Assembly (NCBI RefSeq): GCF_016406145.1
Contig: NZ_CP066306.1
Location: 2,418,001-2,482,000, forward strand
Length of the DNA stretch: 64,000 nt
Source: Pseudomonas putida
Lineage (GTDB): Bacteria; Pseudomonadota; Gammaproteobacteria; Pseudomonadales; Pseudomonadaceae
Reading direction: 5' to 3'
A program made the position numbers and the translations under genes. This document shows positions 17,979 to 24,710 of this stretch, in pieces. Within the stretch, counting starts at the first letter, position 1, and each line of letters begins with the position of its first letter. The notes beneath the pieces are model-generated. The model saw only the letters and a program-made list of their open reading frames with translations, did not search any database and was not told the DNA's origin.

Positions 17979-19319
17979 CTAGGGTTCGTGCGCCCGGTAT
18001 GCGCCTGGGCGGTTGATCAGGATGGCCGTTGCGACGCTGGCCAGTGCGACCAGGGCATTGCCAACCCACAGCCCGAGCATGACGCCGCTGGCACCCTGCA
18101 GCGCTGCGCCTGCGGTGACGAAGGGCAGGGTACCCAAGGTGGCGCGAAGCCAGGCGTAGAAGGCCACCCAGCCTGCCTGGCCACGGCAGATGAACAGCGA
18201 AATGGCGATGAAGTCCAGGCCCATGATGACCCACAGCCCCGGCCCGTACCGGCACAGGTCCTCGATCAGCGCCTGCCCCGGGCCTGACAGCGTGAAGGCA
18301 GGGCCAAGCCACGGCGCGGCGCTTGCCAGTACTGCCCAGGCGACCAGGCCGTACACTACTACCAGCCTGGCGGCGCTGTGCAAGGCAGCCTGCGAACGGC
18401 CCTGGCAGTGCGCCCCCAGGTTCTGTGCCAGGATCGGCACCAGCGCGCCCGGCAAGGCGAAGTACAGGCAGTAGGTAATCTGCAGCACCCTGTCCATTAC
18501 CGCCATGCCGGCCATGACCGACACCCCGAACAGCGCCAGTTGCGCCATGGTGTAGGTCAGGGCAACGGGCATCGCCAGATTAGCGAGGGTATAGGGCAAG
18601 GCAATGCGCATGATGCGTGCGCCATACAGCCGCAGCAGGCGTAGGCGTATGCGCGTGGCAAGGCCTACATGGGCCCTGACCAGGTACAAACCCGTCAGGC
18701 TGCCTGCTGTGGCTGCCACCAGGCAGGACAGGCCGGCGCCCAACAGTTTCAGGTTCAGACCAAAGATCAGTATCGGGTCGACGATGGCCAGGCAGGCGGC
18801 ACTGGCCAGCACCACTGCCAGCGCGCGCCCGCTCAAACCTTGCGCCCGGAGCACTTGGGCCGCGGCCTGAGTGAGCGCCATCAGCACCGACGCCACCAGC
18901 GTCATGGCGATGAATTGCCGGGCAAGCGGTGAGGCGGGCGCATCGGCCCCCACCAGGCCGGCGAAGAAGTCCAGGTAGTACCACTGCAGTGCAGACACAC
19001 CGGCCGAGACCAGCGCGGCGAGGATCAGCATGTGGCTGGTCAGCGCAGGCACCGAGGCACTCGAACCTTGGCCGACCCTGCGGGAGATCATGGTGCCTGC
19101 AGCGACGACAATGCCCGCCACCAGGCTTGAATTGAAAAAGGCCAGGGTCTTGGCGATGCCTACCGCAGCAATGAGTACTTCGTCATGCAGCAGGGCGACA
19201 TACGTGAGCGTGAGAATGTCGGTCAGGAAGATCGCCAGCAGGCTCAGCGCACTGGTAAACGCCATTACCCGGACGTGGTGGGTCAATGAACCTTGGGTGA
19301 ATGTGGCGGGGTGCTTCAT
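17979..19319 (-). CDS. MATE-family multidrug/metabolite efflux transporter
   Basis: A 446-residue polytopic inner-membrane protein with about 12 hydrophobic helices and the MATE pattern, for example AAQVLRAQGLSGRALAVVLA and LYFALPGALVPILAQNLGA. MATE pumps export cationic compounds using Na+ or H+. I start at ATG 19319 (MKHPATFTQGSLTHHVRVM), where the sequence becomes MATE-like; the frame is open 39 codons further up. It is on the same strand as the TetR gene below it. Confidence 0.87.
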   Translation of the reverse strand: MKHPATFTQGSLTHHVRVMAFTSALSLLAIFLTDILTLTYVALLHDEVLIAAVGIAKTLAFFNSSLVAGIVVAAGTMISRRVGQGSSASVPALTSHMLILAALVSAGVSALQWYYLDFFAGLVGADAPASPLARQFIAMTLVASVLMALTQAAAQVLRAQGLSGRALAVVLASAACLAIVDPILIFGLNLKLLGAGLSCLVAATAGSLTGLYLVRAHVGLATRIRLRLLRLYGARIMRIALPYTLANLAMPVALTYTMAQLALFGVSVMAGMAVMDRVLQITYCLYFALPGALVPILAQNLGAHCQGRSQAALHSAARLVVVYGLVAWAVLASAAPWLGPAFTLSGPGQALIEDLCRYGPGLWVIMGLDFIAISLFICRGQAGWVAFYAWLRATLGTLPFVTAGAALQGASGVMLGLWVGNALVALASVATAILINRPGAYRAHEP

Positions 19320-19457
19320 CTTGGGGGGTACCGCTAGGGTGGGTGCAACAGTGCGGTACCAAGACAACGTGGGCTGCGAAGAGTTTAATGGAAAAGCCGC
19401 GTGAGTGATCTTCACCCGACACGCTGCAACTGCCAAGTGGTAGCTGGCCGGCTGGGC

Positions 19458-19925
19458 TCAATGCAGCCGTAGCAACCGGTCCAGCGACAGAGCGCCGGCA
19501 CCCCGGGCTATCAGCAACAGCAGCAGGCCAGCCCACGACAGGTGAGTAGGCCAGGCGTCCGGGTAGACGAATATCTGGATGACCGCTGTCATGCCGAGCA
19601 GGGCAAGCGCTGAAAGCCGGGTGAACAGGCCCAGCACCAGTAGCAGTGGGAACAGGTGCTCGGCGTAGGTTGCCAGGTGGGCTGCGAGCCAGGGCGAAAG
19701 CAGCGGCAAGGCATACTCGCTCTGGAACAGCTCGTAGGTACCGGGCGTGATGCTCAGCAAACCTTCGACCTTGGTGCGGCCTGACAGGAAAAATATCGAG
19801 GCGATGCCCAGCCGTGCGACCAGGCACAACGCGCTGTCGTTGAGCAGCCGTTGCAGGCGGTCGGCAAGGCCGTTCCAGCGTTGGCGCAGGCCAGTGGCTG
19901 GGGCAGTAGGGCGCAAGGTGACCAT
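19458..19925 (-). CDS. DoxX-family membrane protein of the bufferin operon
   Basis: A 155-residue protein with four membrane helices and the DoxX pattern: [18 protein letters not shown] at about 40-57, [23 protein letters not shown] in the middle, and a final helix. DoxX proteins are small quinol- or thiol-linked membrane proteins and often accompany DUF692/DUF2063/DUF2282 clusters. It is the last gene here, 10 bases after the DUF2063 gene. Confidence 0.88.
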
Positions 19926-19935
19926 GGCCGTTCCT

Positions 19936-20691
19936 TCAATCGAATGAAAGCGGGAGAAAGACCCGGGCCTGCATCAGGCGACCGAGCAGGCTGGTGAAGT
20001 CGAGGTCAGGCTGGCGTTGCAGGGCAAGTTGCGAGGCGCTTTCCAGTGAGTGACCGGCTGCGCAGGCATCCAGGAACATGCAGCCACCGGCCTCGAGTGG
20101 CTGATGGTTCACGCCGTGCTGGTCGGCGCTCAACAGTGCGCCTTCTGCCACCCAGGGTTGCGACTGTGGCCATGGCAGGCCTTCGCGGCTGCAGCGCCAC
20201 AGGCTCAGTGCCGGGTGAGCGTCGAACCACTGCCAGCGCACGTTCTGGCGCGGCCGCAGGTGGCTGCCACCCAGGTCACTGGCCGTCATGCCTGCCAGGT
20301 CGGCCAAGGCCAGGCAAGGTTGCTCGATGGCGCTGAAAACTTCGCACCAATGCCAGTCCAGGCGTGCGACATCGGCCAGGTAAGGCAGCCCGTGGCTGGC
20401 CTGGCTGTCTTGCAGAAACGCCGCGAACGTCGCACCGTAGCGTATAAGCCGTGCGTCGTCAGGTGGGGTGTGTTTTGCGTAGGCGGCAGCGGCTTGCTGC
20501 ATCCAGTCGGCACCGACCAGAGTTTCGACACTGGGGAAGTTGGCTCGCAGTGCGTCCACGCAGCCGGCCATCACGGTATTGCGGTAGACCGCGAACGCCG
20601 GTTGGCAAGTCAGGTTTTGCAGCAGCGGAGCAGGGCGCAGGTAGAGTGCGTCGATGAAGGCGTCCTGGAACTGGCCAAGTGACAGGTTCAT
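19936..20691 (-). CDS. bufC: BufC-type DUF2063 partner protein of the MNIO enzyme
   Basis: A 251-residue cytoplasmic protein of the DUF2063 (HvfC/BufC) family, with the typical N terminus [35 protein letters not shown] and [13 protein letters not shown]. The N-terminal helical part is thought to bind the precursor peptide and deliver it to the DUF692 oxidase. It overlaps bufB by 4 bases (ATGA), consistent with a stoichiometric complex. The family is clear; the role is inferred from characterised bufferin and methanobactin-like systems. Confidence 0.88.
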
Positions 20692-21521
20692 GGCAAGGCT
20701 CCTGCGTGGTCGAGGGTCGTCTGGGCAATCGCCCGTTCGGCAAGCAGTTCATCGAAGGCCGGCAGGTTGCCGTCGCGTTCGATCAGTGTCGGGCGCGCAC
20801 CGATGCGCGCGATCAGCCGGCGGTACAAGGCCCAGACCGGTTCGGCAATGGCTGTATCGTGCGAGTCGATCAGCAGTGCGCCTTGGTCGTCGTGGCTGTG
20901 GCCGGCCAGGTGAACTTCGCTGATGGCATGGGCCGGGAAGCGGTCGAGGTAGTCCTTGGCGTTGAAACCCAGGTTGTGTGCGCTGACATGAACGTTGTTG
21001 ATATCCAGCAACAGCGTGCAATCGGTGCGGCGCACCAGCTCGTTGAGGAACTCGATTTCGTCCAGGTCGTGACCTTGCAATTGCAGGTAGTGGCTGGGGT
21101 TTTCGATGGCGATGCAGCGCCCCAGGGCATCCTGGGTGCGCAGGATATTGTCGCTGATGCGTGCCAATGCTTCGTGGCTGCGGGGGAACGGCAGCAGGTC
21201 GGGGTGATACTGGTCACGCCAGGCGGACCAGGCCAGGTGCTCCGACACCAGCACCGGGTTTACCTGGTCGATCAGCACGCGCAGCCGGCGCAGGTGGGTG
21301 ATGTCCGGTTCGGCGTCCGCTGCCAGTGACAGGGCAACGCCGTGCAGCGACAGCGCATGGCGTTCGGCCATGCGCTGCAGCCACGCCAGGCGCGGCCCGC
21401 CGACCATGTAGTTCTCTGGATGCACCTCATACCACAGGCCGTCTGCGTCGCAGGCCAAGGCCTGGGCAAAGTGTTCAGCCTTGAGCCCGAGCCCGGCGCC
21501 CAGAGGGGCAGTTCGGTTCAT
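20688..21521 (-). CDS. bufB: BufB-type MNIO (DUF692) peptide-modifying iron oxidase
   Basis: A 277-residue TIM-barrel enzyme of the multinuclear non-heme iron oxidase family. Metal-ligand-type motifs are visible: VHPENYMVGG, VSEHLAWSAW, IAIENPSHYL, LLLDINNVHVSAHN and EVHLAGHSHDD. These enzymes modify cysteine residues of ribosomally made peptides; in bufferins they are reported to form 5-thiooxazoles. The precursor gene lies 16 bases upstream and bufC overlaps downstream, so this is the modification core of the operon. Confidence 0.93.
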   Translation of the reverse strand: MNRTAPLGAGLGLKAEHFAQALACDADGLWYEVHPENYMVGGPRLAWLQRMAERHALSLHGVALSLAADAEPDITHLRRLRVLIDQVNPVLVSEHLAWSAWRDQYHPDLLPFPRSHEALARISDNILRTQDALGRCIAIENPSHYLQLQGHDLDEIEFLNELVRRTDCTLLLDINNVHVSAHNLGFNAKDYLDRFPAHAISEVHLAGHSHDDQGALLIDSHDTAIAEPVWALYRRLIARIGARPTLIERDGNLPAFDELLAERAIAQTTLDHAGALP

Positions 21522-21537
21522 GGTCGGCGGCCTCTGC

Positions 21538-21816
21538 TCAGGACTTGATCGGGGTCAGTGAACCCATGCCGTTGGGCGTCTTGATCGAGGTGCAGGTGCC
21601 GGCCGGGACATTTTTCCAGGCCATGCCGTCGTAGTCTTTTTTGGAGCTGCCAGCGCAACTGGTGCCGGCACCGGCTTTACAGTCGTTCTTGCCGGCCATG
21701 GCGACGCCGTAGCATTTCTCCATGGCTGCACCGTTGCTGTTGGTATCGGCGGCGGTGGCGACGCTGGCCATGGAAGCAAGGGCCAGGGCGGCAGTGGTAA
21801 GGGCGAGGGTATTCAT
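21538..21816 (-). CDS. bufA1: Bufferin-type precursor peptide (DUF2282)
   Basis: A 92-residue exported peptide. A signal peptide ([19 protein letters not shown]) ends near residue 23. The mature part has four cysteines (35, 46, 54, 75) in the DUF2282 pattern [31 protein letters not shown] and VPAGTC. In characterised bufferins the central cysteines are converted by the MNIO enzyme and the product binds copper; that is family knowledge, not shown here. I use ATG 21816 (GGAGA upstream). The frame is open to 22590 but those residues are antisense to the sigma-factor gene. It is the first gene of the operon. Confidence 0.9.
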
Positions 21817-21870
21817 GGGGATGTCTCCAGAGGATGGGCCGTGGTGATGTACCGAAGGCTCATGGACTAG

Positions 21871-21896
21871 TTCGCGGTGGCCGCTGCTGCGGTTAC
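21871..21896 (-). promoter_or_regulatory. ECF sigma promoter of the bufferin operon (GTAACC-N16-CGAA)
   Basis: Read on the minus strand, GTAACC (21896-21891) and CGAA (21874-21871) are separated by exactly 16 bases. This is the motif I recall for the Caulobacter SigF regulon, which includes DUF2282/MNIO genes. It ends 54 bases before the bufA1 ATG, a normal promoter distance. The divergent sigma gene carries the same motif. Confidence 0.75.
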
Positions 21897-21998
21897 AGGC
21901 ACGCGGAAATATTTTTTGCTTGGTGCATTTGCCCTGACCTATGCGCTCAAAAGCGCAGCAGCGGCTAAGGTTCGATAAAAGAAAAAACTTCAGACGGT

Positions 21999-22024
21999 GT
22001 AACCTTGGCGCCCCATGCAACGAA
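21999..22024 (+). promoter_or_regulatory. Second GTAACC-N16-CGAA motif at the sigma-factor gene
   Basis: GTAACC (21999-22004) and CGAA (22021-22024) are separated by 16 bases on the plus strand, the same as the bufferin-operon copy. It implies autoregulation of the sigma/anti-sigma pair. The -10 element lies inside the first codons if the gene starts at ATG 22015, so either the real start is downstream or a second promoter serves the longer form. Confidence 0.65.
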
Positions 22025-22599
22025 CTAACTCTCAGGACCACCTCGGCGCACGCGAGGCGCAGTTGCAGGCCTTGCTGCTGCGCGGGCTGGCGGGCGATGC
22101 ACGGGCCTACCGCGAATTCCTTGCGGCGCTGGCGCTGCATGTGCGTGGGTTTCTGCGGCGGCGCCTGCAGCAGCGCCCGGCCGAAATCGAAGACTTGCTG
22201 CAGGAAGTGTTGCTGGCCGTGCATAACGCACGTCATACCTACCAGCCGCAACAGCCGCTGACGGCGTGGGTACAGGCGATTGCCCGTTACAAGCTGGCAG
22301 ATTACCTGCGCCGCTATGCGCACCAAGACGCGTTGCACGAGGTGCTGGAAGACGACAGTGACCTGTTCGCCACCAGTGATGAAGCGCCTGCCCAGGCCAA
22401 TCGCGACCTGGGCAAGCTGCTGGGGCGGTTGCCGGCGCGCCAGCGTTTGCCCATCGTCCACGTCAAGCTCGAAGGGCTGTCGGTGGAGGAGACTGCGCGT
22501 ATCACCGGGCTTTCCTGTTCGGCGGTCAAGGTGGGGATACACCGGGGGCTCAAGGCGCTGGCCAAGCTGATTCGAGGCAGTGAAGAGCATGAAGACTGA
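22015..22599 (+). CDS. ECF RNA polymerase sigma factor (SigF/ECF16-like)
   Basis: Up to 194 residues. Region 2: [38 protein letters not shown] and [20 protein letters not shown]. Region 4: [40 protein letters not shown]. It should direct polymerase to the bufferin operon and its own gene. It overlaps the anti-sigma gene by 11 bases. The start is uncertain: ATG 22015 has a poor ribosome-binding site and overlaps the GTAACC/CGAA motif, whereas TTG 22063 has GAGG 5 bases upstream and would begin [19 protein letters not shown], a normal ECF N terminus. Confidence 0.88.
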
Positions 22600-23230
22600 T
22601 GAACTGATTACCCTGCTGGCTGCTGGTGAAGAGCCGGTGGGCCGTCATGCGCTGGCACGGCGCCTGGCGCTGGCGTTGCTTGCAGGCACACTGGGTGCGG
22701 TGCTGATGACGGTGGCTCTTTATGGCGTGCGCAGCGACCTTGCCGAAGTGGCGCGTACGCCACTGTTCTGGGCCAAGCTGGCCTTGCCCGCCAGCCTGGC
22801 GCTGCTAGGGCTTTGGTTGACGCAGCGCCTGGCCAGGCCCGGCGTGCGCGGCGGGGTGGTGTGGCAACTGCTCGGGCTACCGTTGCTGCTGGTCTGGCTG
22901 GGGGCGGCGATCAGCCTGTTCGGGGCTCCGGTCGAAGCCCGTGCCGATTTGATTTTTGGGCGTACCTGGCGCACCTGTGCGTTGAACATCACGCTGCTGT
23001 GCGTGCCGGTGTTCATTACCCTGTTCTGGGCATTGCGTGGCCTGGCACCCACGCGGCTGCGCCAGGCTGGCGCCGCAGCGGGCCTGCTCGCCGGTTCGAC
23101 CGCAACCTTGGTTTACTGCCTGCACTGCCCGGAAATGCAGGTGCCGTTCTGGGGGACCTGGTACGTGCTGGGGATGTTGCTGCCCACGTTGATGGGAGCA
23201 GTGCTTGGCCCGCGTTTTTTGAGGTGGTGA
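22589..23230 (+). CDS. nrsF: NrsF/DUF1109 membrane anti-sigma factor
   Basis: A 213-residue protein with a short cytoplasmic N terminus ([20 protein letters not shown]) and six hydrophobic helices, as in DUF1109 proteins. Cysteines in [13 protein letters not shown] and [17 protein letters not shown] fall where the family has conserved cysteines, which in Caulobacter NrsF take part in sensing metals or oxidants. It should hold the sigma factor at the membrane until a signal, plausibly copper or another metal, releases it. I start at ATG 22589, overlapping the sigma stop, rather than GTG 22580. Confidence 0.88.
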
Positions 23231-23267
23231 AGATGTAGAGCCTGATTGATCGAGCGGGTACGGTGGG

Positions 23268-23849
23268 CTAGCGCAATGTTCGCTCAATTCCCCCAACCAG
23301 CAGGCTTTCCATCAACCCCAACCCCTGTTCCTCAGGCAAAGCCTTCAGCATCCCAGGCAACTGGTTGAGCAACGTCGCCACCACCTGCGCCGTCGCCGCC
23401 AATGCCGCGTCGGGCAGTTTCGCCTGTGGTGCGATCAACCGCAGCAACCCTGTCTCATAACGCTTGCGCAACAACGCCAGGCGCGTTTGCTGCGCTTCGC
23501 TCAGGCAGCAGAAATCCCGTGCGGCCAAGCGAAACTGCAGGGGCCGTTCGGCATGCAGTTGCCAGTGCGCTGCAATCAGGCAAGCCAGTGCCGAACCCCC
23601 GCGCGCCATGGCGCGGCGGCCAGGCTCCAGGGTTGCTTGCAGCTCCTCGTACAACTCTTCGATCAGGTCGTACAGCAAGTCCTGCTTGCTCGGGAAGTGG
23701 TGATACAGCGAACCTGCGGTCACGCCCAGATGTGCCGCCAGTTCGCGCATGCTCACCTGGCCGAAGCCTTTCTCGGCGAACAGGGCCATGGCACGGTCAC
23801 GTCGCTCTTCAAAATTGGCACAGCGCATCGCGGCATTGACCGGGGGCAT
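23268..23849 (-). CDS. TetR-family transcriptional regulator
   Basis: A 193-residue regulator with the TetR motif RAMALFAEKGFGQVSMREL, AAHLGVTAGSLYHHFPSKQD. It lies 12 bases downstream of the hydroxyacyl-CoA dehydrogenase gene and probably shares its transcript, so control of the bktB-hbd pathway by an acyl-CoA ligand is a reasonable guess. ATG 23849 is used; ATG 23828 (MRCANFEERRDR) is an alternative. Confidence 0.87.
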   Translation of the reverse strand: MPPVNAAMRCANFEERRDRAMALFAEKGFGQVSMRELAAHLGVTAGSLYHHFPSKQDLLYDLIEELYEELQATLEPGRRAMARGGSALACLIAAHWQLHAERPLQFRLAARDFCCLSEAQQTRLALLRKRYETGLLRLIAPQAKLPDAALAATAQVVATLLNQLPGMLKALPEEQGLGLMESLLVGGIERTLR

Positions 23850-23861
23850 GCTGTCCGCTCC

Positions 23862-24710
23862 TCAGTAGGTGAAGAAGCCGCGGCCACTCTTGCGCCCCAA
23901 CCAGCCGGCCGCGACCATTTCCCTTAGCAGTGGGGCAGGGCGGTACTTGCTGTCGTTGAAACCCTCATGGAAGGCTTCCATGATCGCCAGCAAGGTGTCC
24001 AGGCCAATCAGGTCGGCCAGCGCCAGCGGGCCGATCGGCTGGTTGCAACCCAGGCGCATGCCGGTGTCGATGTCCTCGGCACTGGCCAGGCCCTCCTGGC
24101 GCACGAAGATCGCTTCGTTGATCATCGGCACCAGGATGCGGTTGACCACGAAGCCCGGGCGGTTACCGGCAGTGATCGGCGTCTTGCCGAGCTTCTCGGT
24201 AACCAGCAGCGCCTGGGCATAGGTGCTGTCGCTGGTTTGCAGGCCACGGATGATCTCGACCAGGGCCATCATCGGCACCGGGTTGAAGAAGTGCACGCCG
24301 ATGAACCGCTCAGGGTGCTCGATACTGGCCGCCAGCTGGGTCACCGAAAGTGACGAGGTGTTGGTGGCAATCAGGCAATCGGGCGCCACGTTGGCAGCCA
24401 CTTGCTGGAGGATGCGTTGCTTGAGCTGCAGGTTTTCGGTCGCCGCCTCGATCACCAGTTGCGCAGTGCTCAATTGCGCGTAATCGGTGCTGGTGCGGAT
24501 GCGCGCTTTCGCTGCGCTGGCACGCTCGGCATCGAGGGTACCCTTGTTGACCTGGCGCTCCAGGTTTTTGCTCAGGGTGGCTACGCCGCGCTCTAGTGCG
24601 GCCTCGGCGACATCCACCAGCAGCACCTGATAGCCGGCCACCGCGCAGACTTGCGCGATGCCGTTGCCCATGGTGCCGGCGCCGATCACGGCGATCTGTT
24701 CAATGCTCAT
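23862..24710 (-). CDS. hbd: 3-hydroxybutyryl/3-hydroxyacyl-CoA dehydrogenase
   Basis: A 282-residue NAD-dependent enzyme of short-chain beta-oxidation. The Rossmann motif IGAGTMGNGIAQVCAVAGYQ opens the protein. The catalytic His/Glu regions appear as GVHFFNPVPMMALVEIIRG, with NRPGFVVNRILVPMINEA and LADLIGLDTLLAIMEAFHEG later. It oxidises 3-hydroxyacyl-CoA to 3-ketoacyl-CoA for the thiolase encoded just upstream. ATG 24710 has GAGGGA upstream, overlapping the thiolase stop; the gap is 13 bases. Confidence 0.93.
   Translation of the reverse strand: MSIEQIAVIGAGTMGNGIAQVCAVAGYQVLLVDVAEAALERGVATLSKNLERQVNKGTLDAERASAAKARIRTSTDYAQLSTAQLVIEAATENLQLKQRILQQVAANVAPDCLIATNTSSLSVTQLAASIEHPERFIGVHFFNPVPMMALVEIIRGLQTSDSTYAQALLVTEKLGKTPITAGNRPGFVVNRILVPMINEAIFVRQEGLASAEDIDTGMRLGCNQPIGPLALADLIGLDTLLAIMEAFHEGFNDSKYRPAPLLREMVAAGWLGRKSGRGFFTY

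Follow-up and report, generated by a model that had tools for sequence, protein, structure and literature searches.

Among described stress switches, the SigF/NrsF system of Caulobacter crescentus, with the bufferin operon CC3254–3257, offers a close counterpart of the locus reported here, the two having in common an NrsF anti-sigma factor, an operon of DUF2282, MNIO, DUF2063 and DoxX genes, and the motif GTAACC-N16-CGAA (PMC3511200, PMC8224329). In the portions of the cited papers on which we draw here and below, this motif is given as the SigF promoter of Caulobacter (PMC3511200), that of ECF16 in general is quoted as tGTAACc-N16-CGAA (PMC3420878), and the SigF regulon of Caulobacter is reported to be induced by copper (PMC3511200, PMC8224329). 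A sigma/anti-sigma pair in bufferin-1 clusters has also been published already (PMC12452194). A preliminary description of the present locus had likened its motif to that of Caulobacter SigF, which the literature bears out. It had also pictured the system as transplanted from Caulobacter, an idea that finds no support in the arrangement described below, which is common to Pseudomonas and Burkholderiales and unlike that of more distant relatives.

The window, by which we mean the whole stretch of 64,000 nucleotides that was analysed, corresponds to positions 2,418,001–2,482,000 of the main contig of a 5.85-Mb Pseudomonas putida genome. Between 19458 and 23230 it carries a bufferin-1 operon on the minus strand, divergent from an ECF sigma factor gene and an NrsF anti-sigma gene on the plus strand (Table 1), a cluster of a kind already known.

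Table 1. Features of the divergent bufferin-1/sigF–nrsF locus, in coordinates of the window
Feature	Position	Strand	Description
bufD1	19458..19925	-	DoxX-family membrane protein (domain search)
bufC1	19936..20691	-	DUF2063 partner protein (domain search)
bufB1	20688..21521	-	MNIO maturase; MNIO_BufB 345 bits (cut-off 310)
bufA1	21538..21816	-	Bufferin-1 precursor, DUF2282; PF10048 86.9 bits
Putative SigF-type (ECF16) promoter, bufferin operon	21868..21897	-	TGTAACC-N16-CGAACTA; predicted transcript start ~21865
SigF-type (ECF16) site straddling the sigF start codon	21998..22027	+	TGTAACC-N10-ATG-NNN-CGAACTA; predicted transcript start ~22030, inside sigF
sigF	22015..22599	+	ECF sigma factor, 194 aa; Sigma70_r2 and Sigma70_r4_2; PRK12536 subfamily 316 bits (cut-off 250)
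TTG, candidate alternative start of sigF	22063..22065	+	First in-frame downstream ATG/GTG/TTG; SD-like sequence, -5.9 kcal/mol
nrsF	22589..23230	+	Membrane anti-sigma factor, 213 aa; NrsF PF06532 253 bits (cut-off 26.8); own SD

A domain search of the sigF product returned sigma regions 2 and 4 only, as expected for ECF16, and its nearest named homologue in a protein search is that of Pseudomonas sp. BNK-30 (97% identity). Six hydrophobic segments are found in NrsF (19-mers, hydropathy), which scores 143 bits against the NCBIfam equivalog, under the cut-off of 300. Cys130 and Cys180 are present in all 136 rows of the family alignment, in which the window's own locus is counted twice. In 93 of these 136 rows an extra cysteine (Cys177 in the window) stands three residues before Cys180, often giving a CxxC-like pair. 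An ECF sigma factor adjoined by an NrsF with six segments and two cysteines, together with the motif on both sides of the divergence, places the locus in the ECF16 (SigF/NrsF) group, in agreement with the preliminary description and with the domain and family profiles. The same holds for its recognition of a bufferin operon: a DUF2282 precursor with four cysteines (35, 46, 54 and 75), an MNIO maturase, a DUF2063 partner and a DoxX protein make up what would be expected of bufferin-1. The N-terminus of the precursor resembles a signal peptide by eye only, and its sole NCBIfam bufferin match is to BufA2 (25 bits, under the cut-off of 60). DUF2282, DUF692, DUF2063 and DoxX also occur together in the Pseudomonas 'Pep1' cluster, which has been classed as a putative peptide cluster (PMC8719888). 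The whole genome contains one NrsF match and one DUF2282 match, both at this locus, and a scan of 19000–24500 for RNA families at the gathering threshold returned none.

Two exact copies of GTAACC-N16-CGAA point outward from the divergence, GTAACCGCAGCAGCGGCCACCGCGAA at 21896–21871 on the minus strand and GTAACCTTGGCGCCCCATGCAACGAA at 21999–22024 on the plus strand. The preliminary description had reported them with the same spacing, and the block that they share proves to be even longer (TGTAACC-N16-CGAACTA). Twin promoters as such fit a known kind, since both the SigF/ECF16 motif and the sigma/anti-sigma pair in bufferin-1 clusters are already in print. Shuffled versions of the window contained 0.15 matches on average (N15–18), and two matches were reached in two of 100 shuffles. 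Over the genome, by contrast, the short motif shows no enrichment (48 matches at N15–18 versus 78 for the reversed control pattern), and it was rejected as a genome-wide regulon finder; the suggestion that GTAACC-N16-17-CGAA would on its own serve as a regulon motif is not supported by this search. Eleven of the 48 matches have N16, and the nine of these that fall outside the locus each lie within an open frame of 211–636 codons, although long open frames are no proof of a gene in a G+C-rich genome. The 5.85 Mb contain just two perfect copies of the longer TGTAACC-N16-CGAANTA, both at the locus; with up to two mismatches the pattern yields 39 matches versus 54 in the control.

The bufferin-side site may be read straightforwardly as an ordinary SigF promoter. 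It would give a leader of about 49 nt with a Shine–Dalgarno sequence of -6.4 kcal/mol before bufA1 at 21816. Among relatives, a T precedes GTAACC in 45 of 45 non-redundant bufferin-side sites, and an A/T-rich stretch lies immediately upstream of the -35 element in 15 of 15 printed loci. Between the two -35 elements of the window there is also a short perfect inverted repeat, TGCGCT-CAAA-AGCGCA (21942–21957); among the same 15 printed loci a similar one was seen, by eye only, in L011 and L013.

Across the genus, the motif is plainly associated with the sigma gene. An exact scan of 298 genomes for TGTAACC-N16-CGAAYTA, made from the motif first and with the reversed pattern as control, returned 81 sites in 45 genomes, as against five control sites in all. 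The sigma gene is carried by 43 of the 298 genomes (E <= 1e-20), and the exact site occurs in 42 of these 43 versus three of the 255 others (Fisher p = 2e-46, a value that overstates independence, the species being related). One of the three site-bearing genomes without the sigma gene (G085, locus L155) has a decayed copy of the locus that has lost the greater part of sigF and nrsF: a site on the minus strand (position 2384 of the reverse complement) and approximately the first ten sigma codons abut what remains of the end of nrsF. No significant bufferin gene match was found there in 4.5 kb. In the other two genomes no related gene was found in the 2–3 kb around the site.

The earlier view of the plus copy as a plain promoter of the sigma gene is not supported. 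The sigF ATG (22015–22017) sits within the 16-base spacer of the site, and the CGA of CGAA (22021–22024) is codon 3, so that the -10 element lies within the open reading frame. For EcfF, an ECF16 sigma factor, the measured transcript start is 6 bp after the -10 box (PMC3420878). With this distance, 6 nt past the -10 element, transcription from the plus site would begin 13–15 nt downstream of the ATG. Because ATG 22015 lies upstream of the start predicted at about 22030, RNA from the plus site would be devoid of the start codon.

This geometry was followed through 139 loci, one of which (L010) is the window's own. They comprise a set of 59 (30 of 45 matching places and 29 new ones of 56 places) and a set of 80 named loci, chosen as the best of 559 confirmed places. 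There is some overlap between the sets, L041 matching L069, and L035 and L084 having identical site sequences. An N16 site adjoins sigF in 97 of the 139; the ATG geometry is found in 78 of these 97, of which 58 are left at <=95% identity. The 42 loci without an adjacent N16 site were left out of the geometry counts; in 30 of them the 2 kb ahead of the gene contain a site on the plus strand, and some others have N15. In L102, L110, L115 and L141 nrsF stands before sigF, and the ECF16 site lies ahead of nrsF, about 690 bp upstream of sigF.

Where the site adjoins sigF in loci of the same class or of named beta- or gammaproteobacteria, the ATG stands exactly 6 nt before CGAA, with the sigma frame open, in 78 of 83 cases. 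These include Pseudomonas, Stutzerimonas, Paraburkholderia, Caballeronia, Cupriavidus, Ralstonia and a Comamonadaceae bin, and the same geometry was seen, outside the 139, in C. campinensis and on a conjugative plasmid of Stenotrophomonas. That plasmid (S. rhizophila CP031732.1, L152) carries a DUF2282 gene, sigF, nrsF, twin sites and the start-codon overlap with no MNIO match in 7.5 kb, that is, a precursor and a switch without a neighbouring maturase. The five exceptions are of several kinds: L035 and L084 have the ATG block repeated 18 nt further on, past the -10 element, in L045 and L145 the ATG follows CGAA at 8 and 19 nt, and L046 has an in-frame ATG within the spacer at a different offset. 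In 14 loci of other classes of the phylum, probably alphaproteobacteria, the first candidate start lies 5–20 nt after CGAA, and the spacing between the site and the protein body keeps no constant reading frame.

Because GTAA(C/T) and CGAA were demanded in motif scoring, the positions that are independently informative are T(-1), the second C and the flanks. Of the non-redundant loci, 58 of 58 have T(-1) and 56 of 58 have the second C, against a spacer that is variable for the most part. The geometry count is not circular, since a search for GTAAC-N11-ATG in which CGAA was not demanded found NNN-CGAA next in 78 of 78 cases. Conversely, ATG-NNN-CGAA without the demand for GTAAC gave 81 loci, three of which (L035, L084 and L148) lack GTAAC in place. 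The bufferin-side sites provide a natural control: an ATG at the same offset occurs in none of 45 non-redundant loci, which indicates that the promoter itself does not need it. CGAA, for its part, is constant while residue 4 varies (T, I, N), and its conservation is therefore at the level of DNA. Promoter and start codon are both constrained within the same 26 bases. A site on the opposite strand lies within 700 bp in 58 of the 78 loci with the sigF-side geometry. Among the open-access texts retrieved, none was found to describe an overlap of this kind in these bacteria, which does not establish its absence from print.

The sequence shows where the two sites and the ATG lie, that the sites are conserved and that a coding signature runs from that ATG, and it leads us to the following reading. 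An SigF/NrsF (ECF16) stress switch would control the bufferin-1 operon through the normal minus-strand SigF promoter, while the plus-strand site would be a second site for SigF–RNA polymerase, with an RNA that would begin at about codon 6 and could not encode full-length SigF. This RNA would most likely serve above all for the synthesis of NrsF, whose gene has a ribosome-binding site of its own. SigF, once active, would thus increase the inhibitor and not itself, and the response would be shut down, much as happens with SigH and RshA in Corynebacterium. Full-length SigF would come from a separate, SigF-independent promoter further upstream. What we infer here is that SigF binds, where the transcripts begin and that nrsF is expressed without sigF. 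For the locus itself, we give slightly less than an even chance to the combination of a sigma-side site that starts inside sigF and mainly raises NrsF, resulting in negative feedback, with a normal bufferin side. The wider proposition is a tentative one, somewhat more apt to be wrong than right: that Pseudomonas and Burkholderiales keep a SigF promoter exactly across the sigF start so that SigF activity would lead to a message that skips sigF and makes only the inhibitor, a homeostatic brake. If true, this would be the opposite of the self-amplifying loop usually assumed for ECF sigma factors, and the predicted sign of feedback would change in a widespread copper-stress switch. Since start codon and promoter overlap, small changes should separate the two functions, making the idea simple to test.

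Negative feedback through NrsF is favoured by the co-occurrence of motif and sigma gene, by the constant ATG offset and by the signs of translation from ATG 22015. Its main rival is ordinary positive autoregulation, in which the plus site would drive sigF and translation would begin at an in-frame codon further on (TTG22063 in the window; in other loci GTG or TTG, at codon 9, 10 or 17), yielding a sigma factor with a shorter N-terminus, like that of distant relatives. We consider this possible and, on the whole, doubtful. The offset of the ATG, constant in 78 of 83 loci, speaks against it, and so does the coding-type evolution of codons 2 and 5–11. In 26 disjoint related pairs, six of six substitutions in codon 2, which precedes the predicted transcript start, are synonymous, and codons 5–11 show a third-position excess (40 of 84, p = 0.005 by simulation). 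Over codons 5–13, stops occur in none of 58 loci in the sigma frame versus 15 and 22 of 58 in the other two. These patterns lend support to translation from ATG 22015.

The candidate downstream starts can be weighed on both sides. At least one in-frame ATG, GTG or TTG lies between the predicted transcript start and the conserved GD in 47 of 58 loci, as positive autoregulation would have it, but there is none in the remaining 11, a point in favour of feedback through NrsF, and the candidates shift position between relatives, not all of which keep TTG22063. TTG22063 has a good Shine–Dalgarno sequence (-5.9 kcal/mol as against -1.5 for ATG22015), and among Val codons 6–28 GTG is over-represented (27 of 34 versus 301 of 551, p = 0.004, counts that are not phylogenetically independent), a bias to be expected should a downstream GTG serve as the start in some species; both observations weaken the case for NrsF-mediated feedback. 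The rival gains nothing from early Leu-TTG and Met codons, which are not enriched. It is in agreement with the relatives of other classes, which start past the -10 element.

The signals for ribosome binding point the other way. No Shine–Dalgarno sequence was detected at the conserved sigF ATG (median -2.15 kcal/mol versus -3.0 when shuffled), whereas nrsF has its own (median -6.4 versus -3.8, 57 of 58 loci; -5.9 in the window). An RNA from about 22030 could on this account yield NrsF and not full-length SigF, which favours the proposed feedback. The start of nrsF overlaps the end of sigF by 11 nt in the window and by 1–14 nt across loci, and possible translational coupling would weaken expression from the truncated RNA. 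When folded, the initial 91 nt of the short RNA predicted here are less stable than shuffled sequences (z 1.57).

A further weakness of the proposed feedback is that the window yielded no promoter from which a sigF mRNA with the ATG could be made. A sigma-70-like promoter was rejected, none being detected by consensus in 21500–22200 and the matrix score being no better than that of shuffled sequence (z -0.2). Over 58 loci the mean z is 0.62, with seven loci above 1.65; TTGAGA-N17-TA(A/C/G)(C/T)GT is the best sigma-70 match in seven relatives, L026, L027, L028, L132, L133, L134 and L138, though not in the window. The claim that the full regulatory circuit can be predicted from sequence alone is not supported. 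The same negative result bears on another explanation, namely that SigF–RNA polymerase sitting across the start region blocks an upstream sigF promoter, the site being an operator for negative autoregulation and any RNA incidental. Such occlusion would suit the geometry and the joint conservation of site and ATG, and weak autoregulation would fit it too. It is nevertheless improbable, because a site so near the published consensus would normally initiate as well and because the promoter to be blocked was found by neither consensus nor matrix search. The commonness of the short motif in the genome (48 matches) might suggest that the plus site arose by chance or is a leftover that no longer serves any function, but this is very improbable in view of a T(-1) and a second C kept almost throughout while most of the spacer varies, and of a CGAA that stays constant despite changes of residue 4.

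Comparison with known systems yields arguments for and against negative feedback through NrsF. In the published portions cited, Caulobacter sigF is called 'not strongly auto-regulated' and its fusion is only partly SigF-dependent (PMC3511200), which favours such feedback. On the other hand, extra SigF raises the sigF promoter fusion (PMC3511200) and sigF and nrsF are induced to a similar degree by copper (first table column, 4.44 and 4.15; PMC8224329), both of which weaken it, and the copper induction of sigF itself is in line with positive autoregulation. Weakening, too, is the positive autoregulation of the Brucella ECF16 sigma operon, as seen with lacZ fusions (PMC8315932). Pseudomonas differs from what is published for Caulobacter, which we know from papers and not from a comparison of DNA, in that the sigF start lies in the promoter spacer. 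The genome studied here has one bufferin operon and no further perfect site, in contrast to the three SigF-dependent units besides sigF of Caulobacter.

Cupriavidus metallidurans has the same divergent genes, rpoQ-rsqA and gigPABT, and twin outward ECF16 sites between gigP and rpoQ (CH34, NC_007974.2, L151), but its plus site lies about 150–200 bp upstream of the sigma coding region, in a part of the record that is unannotated, and not across the start. The absence of the start-codon geometry from rpoQ counts against the feedback that we propose. A possible ORF of about 19 codons follows the rpoQ-side site. The gig genes are induced by Cu and Au, and control of gig by RpoQ is not demonstrated in the cited parts of the reports (PMC10304878, PMC11022561, PMC13192273). 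The rpoQ-rsqA genes are said to be RpoD-dependent (PMC10304878); we considered this as support for a brake through NrsF and dropped it, the C. metallidurans sequence having another geometry. As, in addition, the main text of PMC9045368, the paper cited for this dependence, does not name rpoQ, the statement is no direct test and does not decide the matter. Our observations nonetheless bear on a published open question, why RpoQ control of the gig/bufferin operon is hard to show, with twin sites present there in another geometry.

Two further systems mark out the alternatives. Bradyrhizobium EcfF-OsrA is likewise an ECF16 pair in which the measured transcript start overlaps the annotated sigma ATG; unlike the present group it is a single case, with the motif GTAAC(g,a)-N14-15, and was resolved by a distal start codon (PMC3420878), a re-annotation of the kind that positive autoregulation would call for here. 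The transcript start distance of EcfF, on the other hand, favours negative feedback through NrsF. So does the internal promoter of Corynebacterium glutamicum SigH-RshA, which resembles the circuit proposed: the sigma factor is expressed from housekeeping promoters, and a SigH promoter inside sigH drives the anti-sigma gene only (PMC3489674). The sigma and anti-sigma families are other ones, and that promoter is located 62–66 nt before the rshA start codon and not where the sigma gene starts (PMC3489674). We infer from the position of the start codon only that the present locus may have a circuit of the C. glutamicum type, in which the anti-sigma factor alone would be made from the sigma-driven promoter. 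If so, the presence of a promoter motif at an ECF sigma gene would not by itself imply that the gene activates its own expression.
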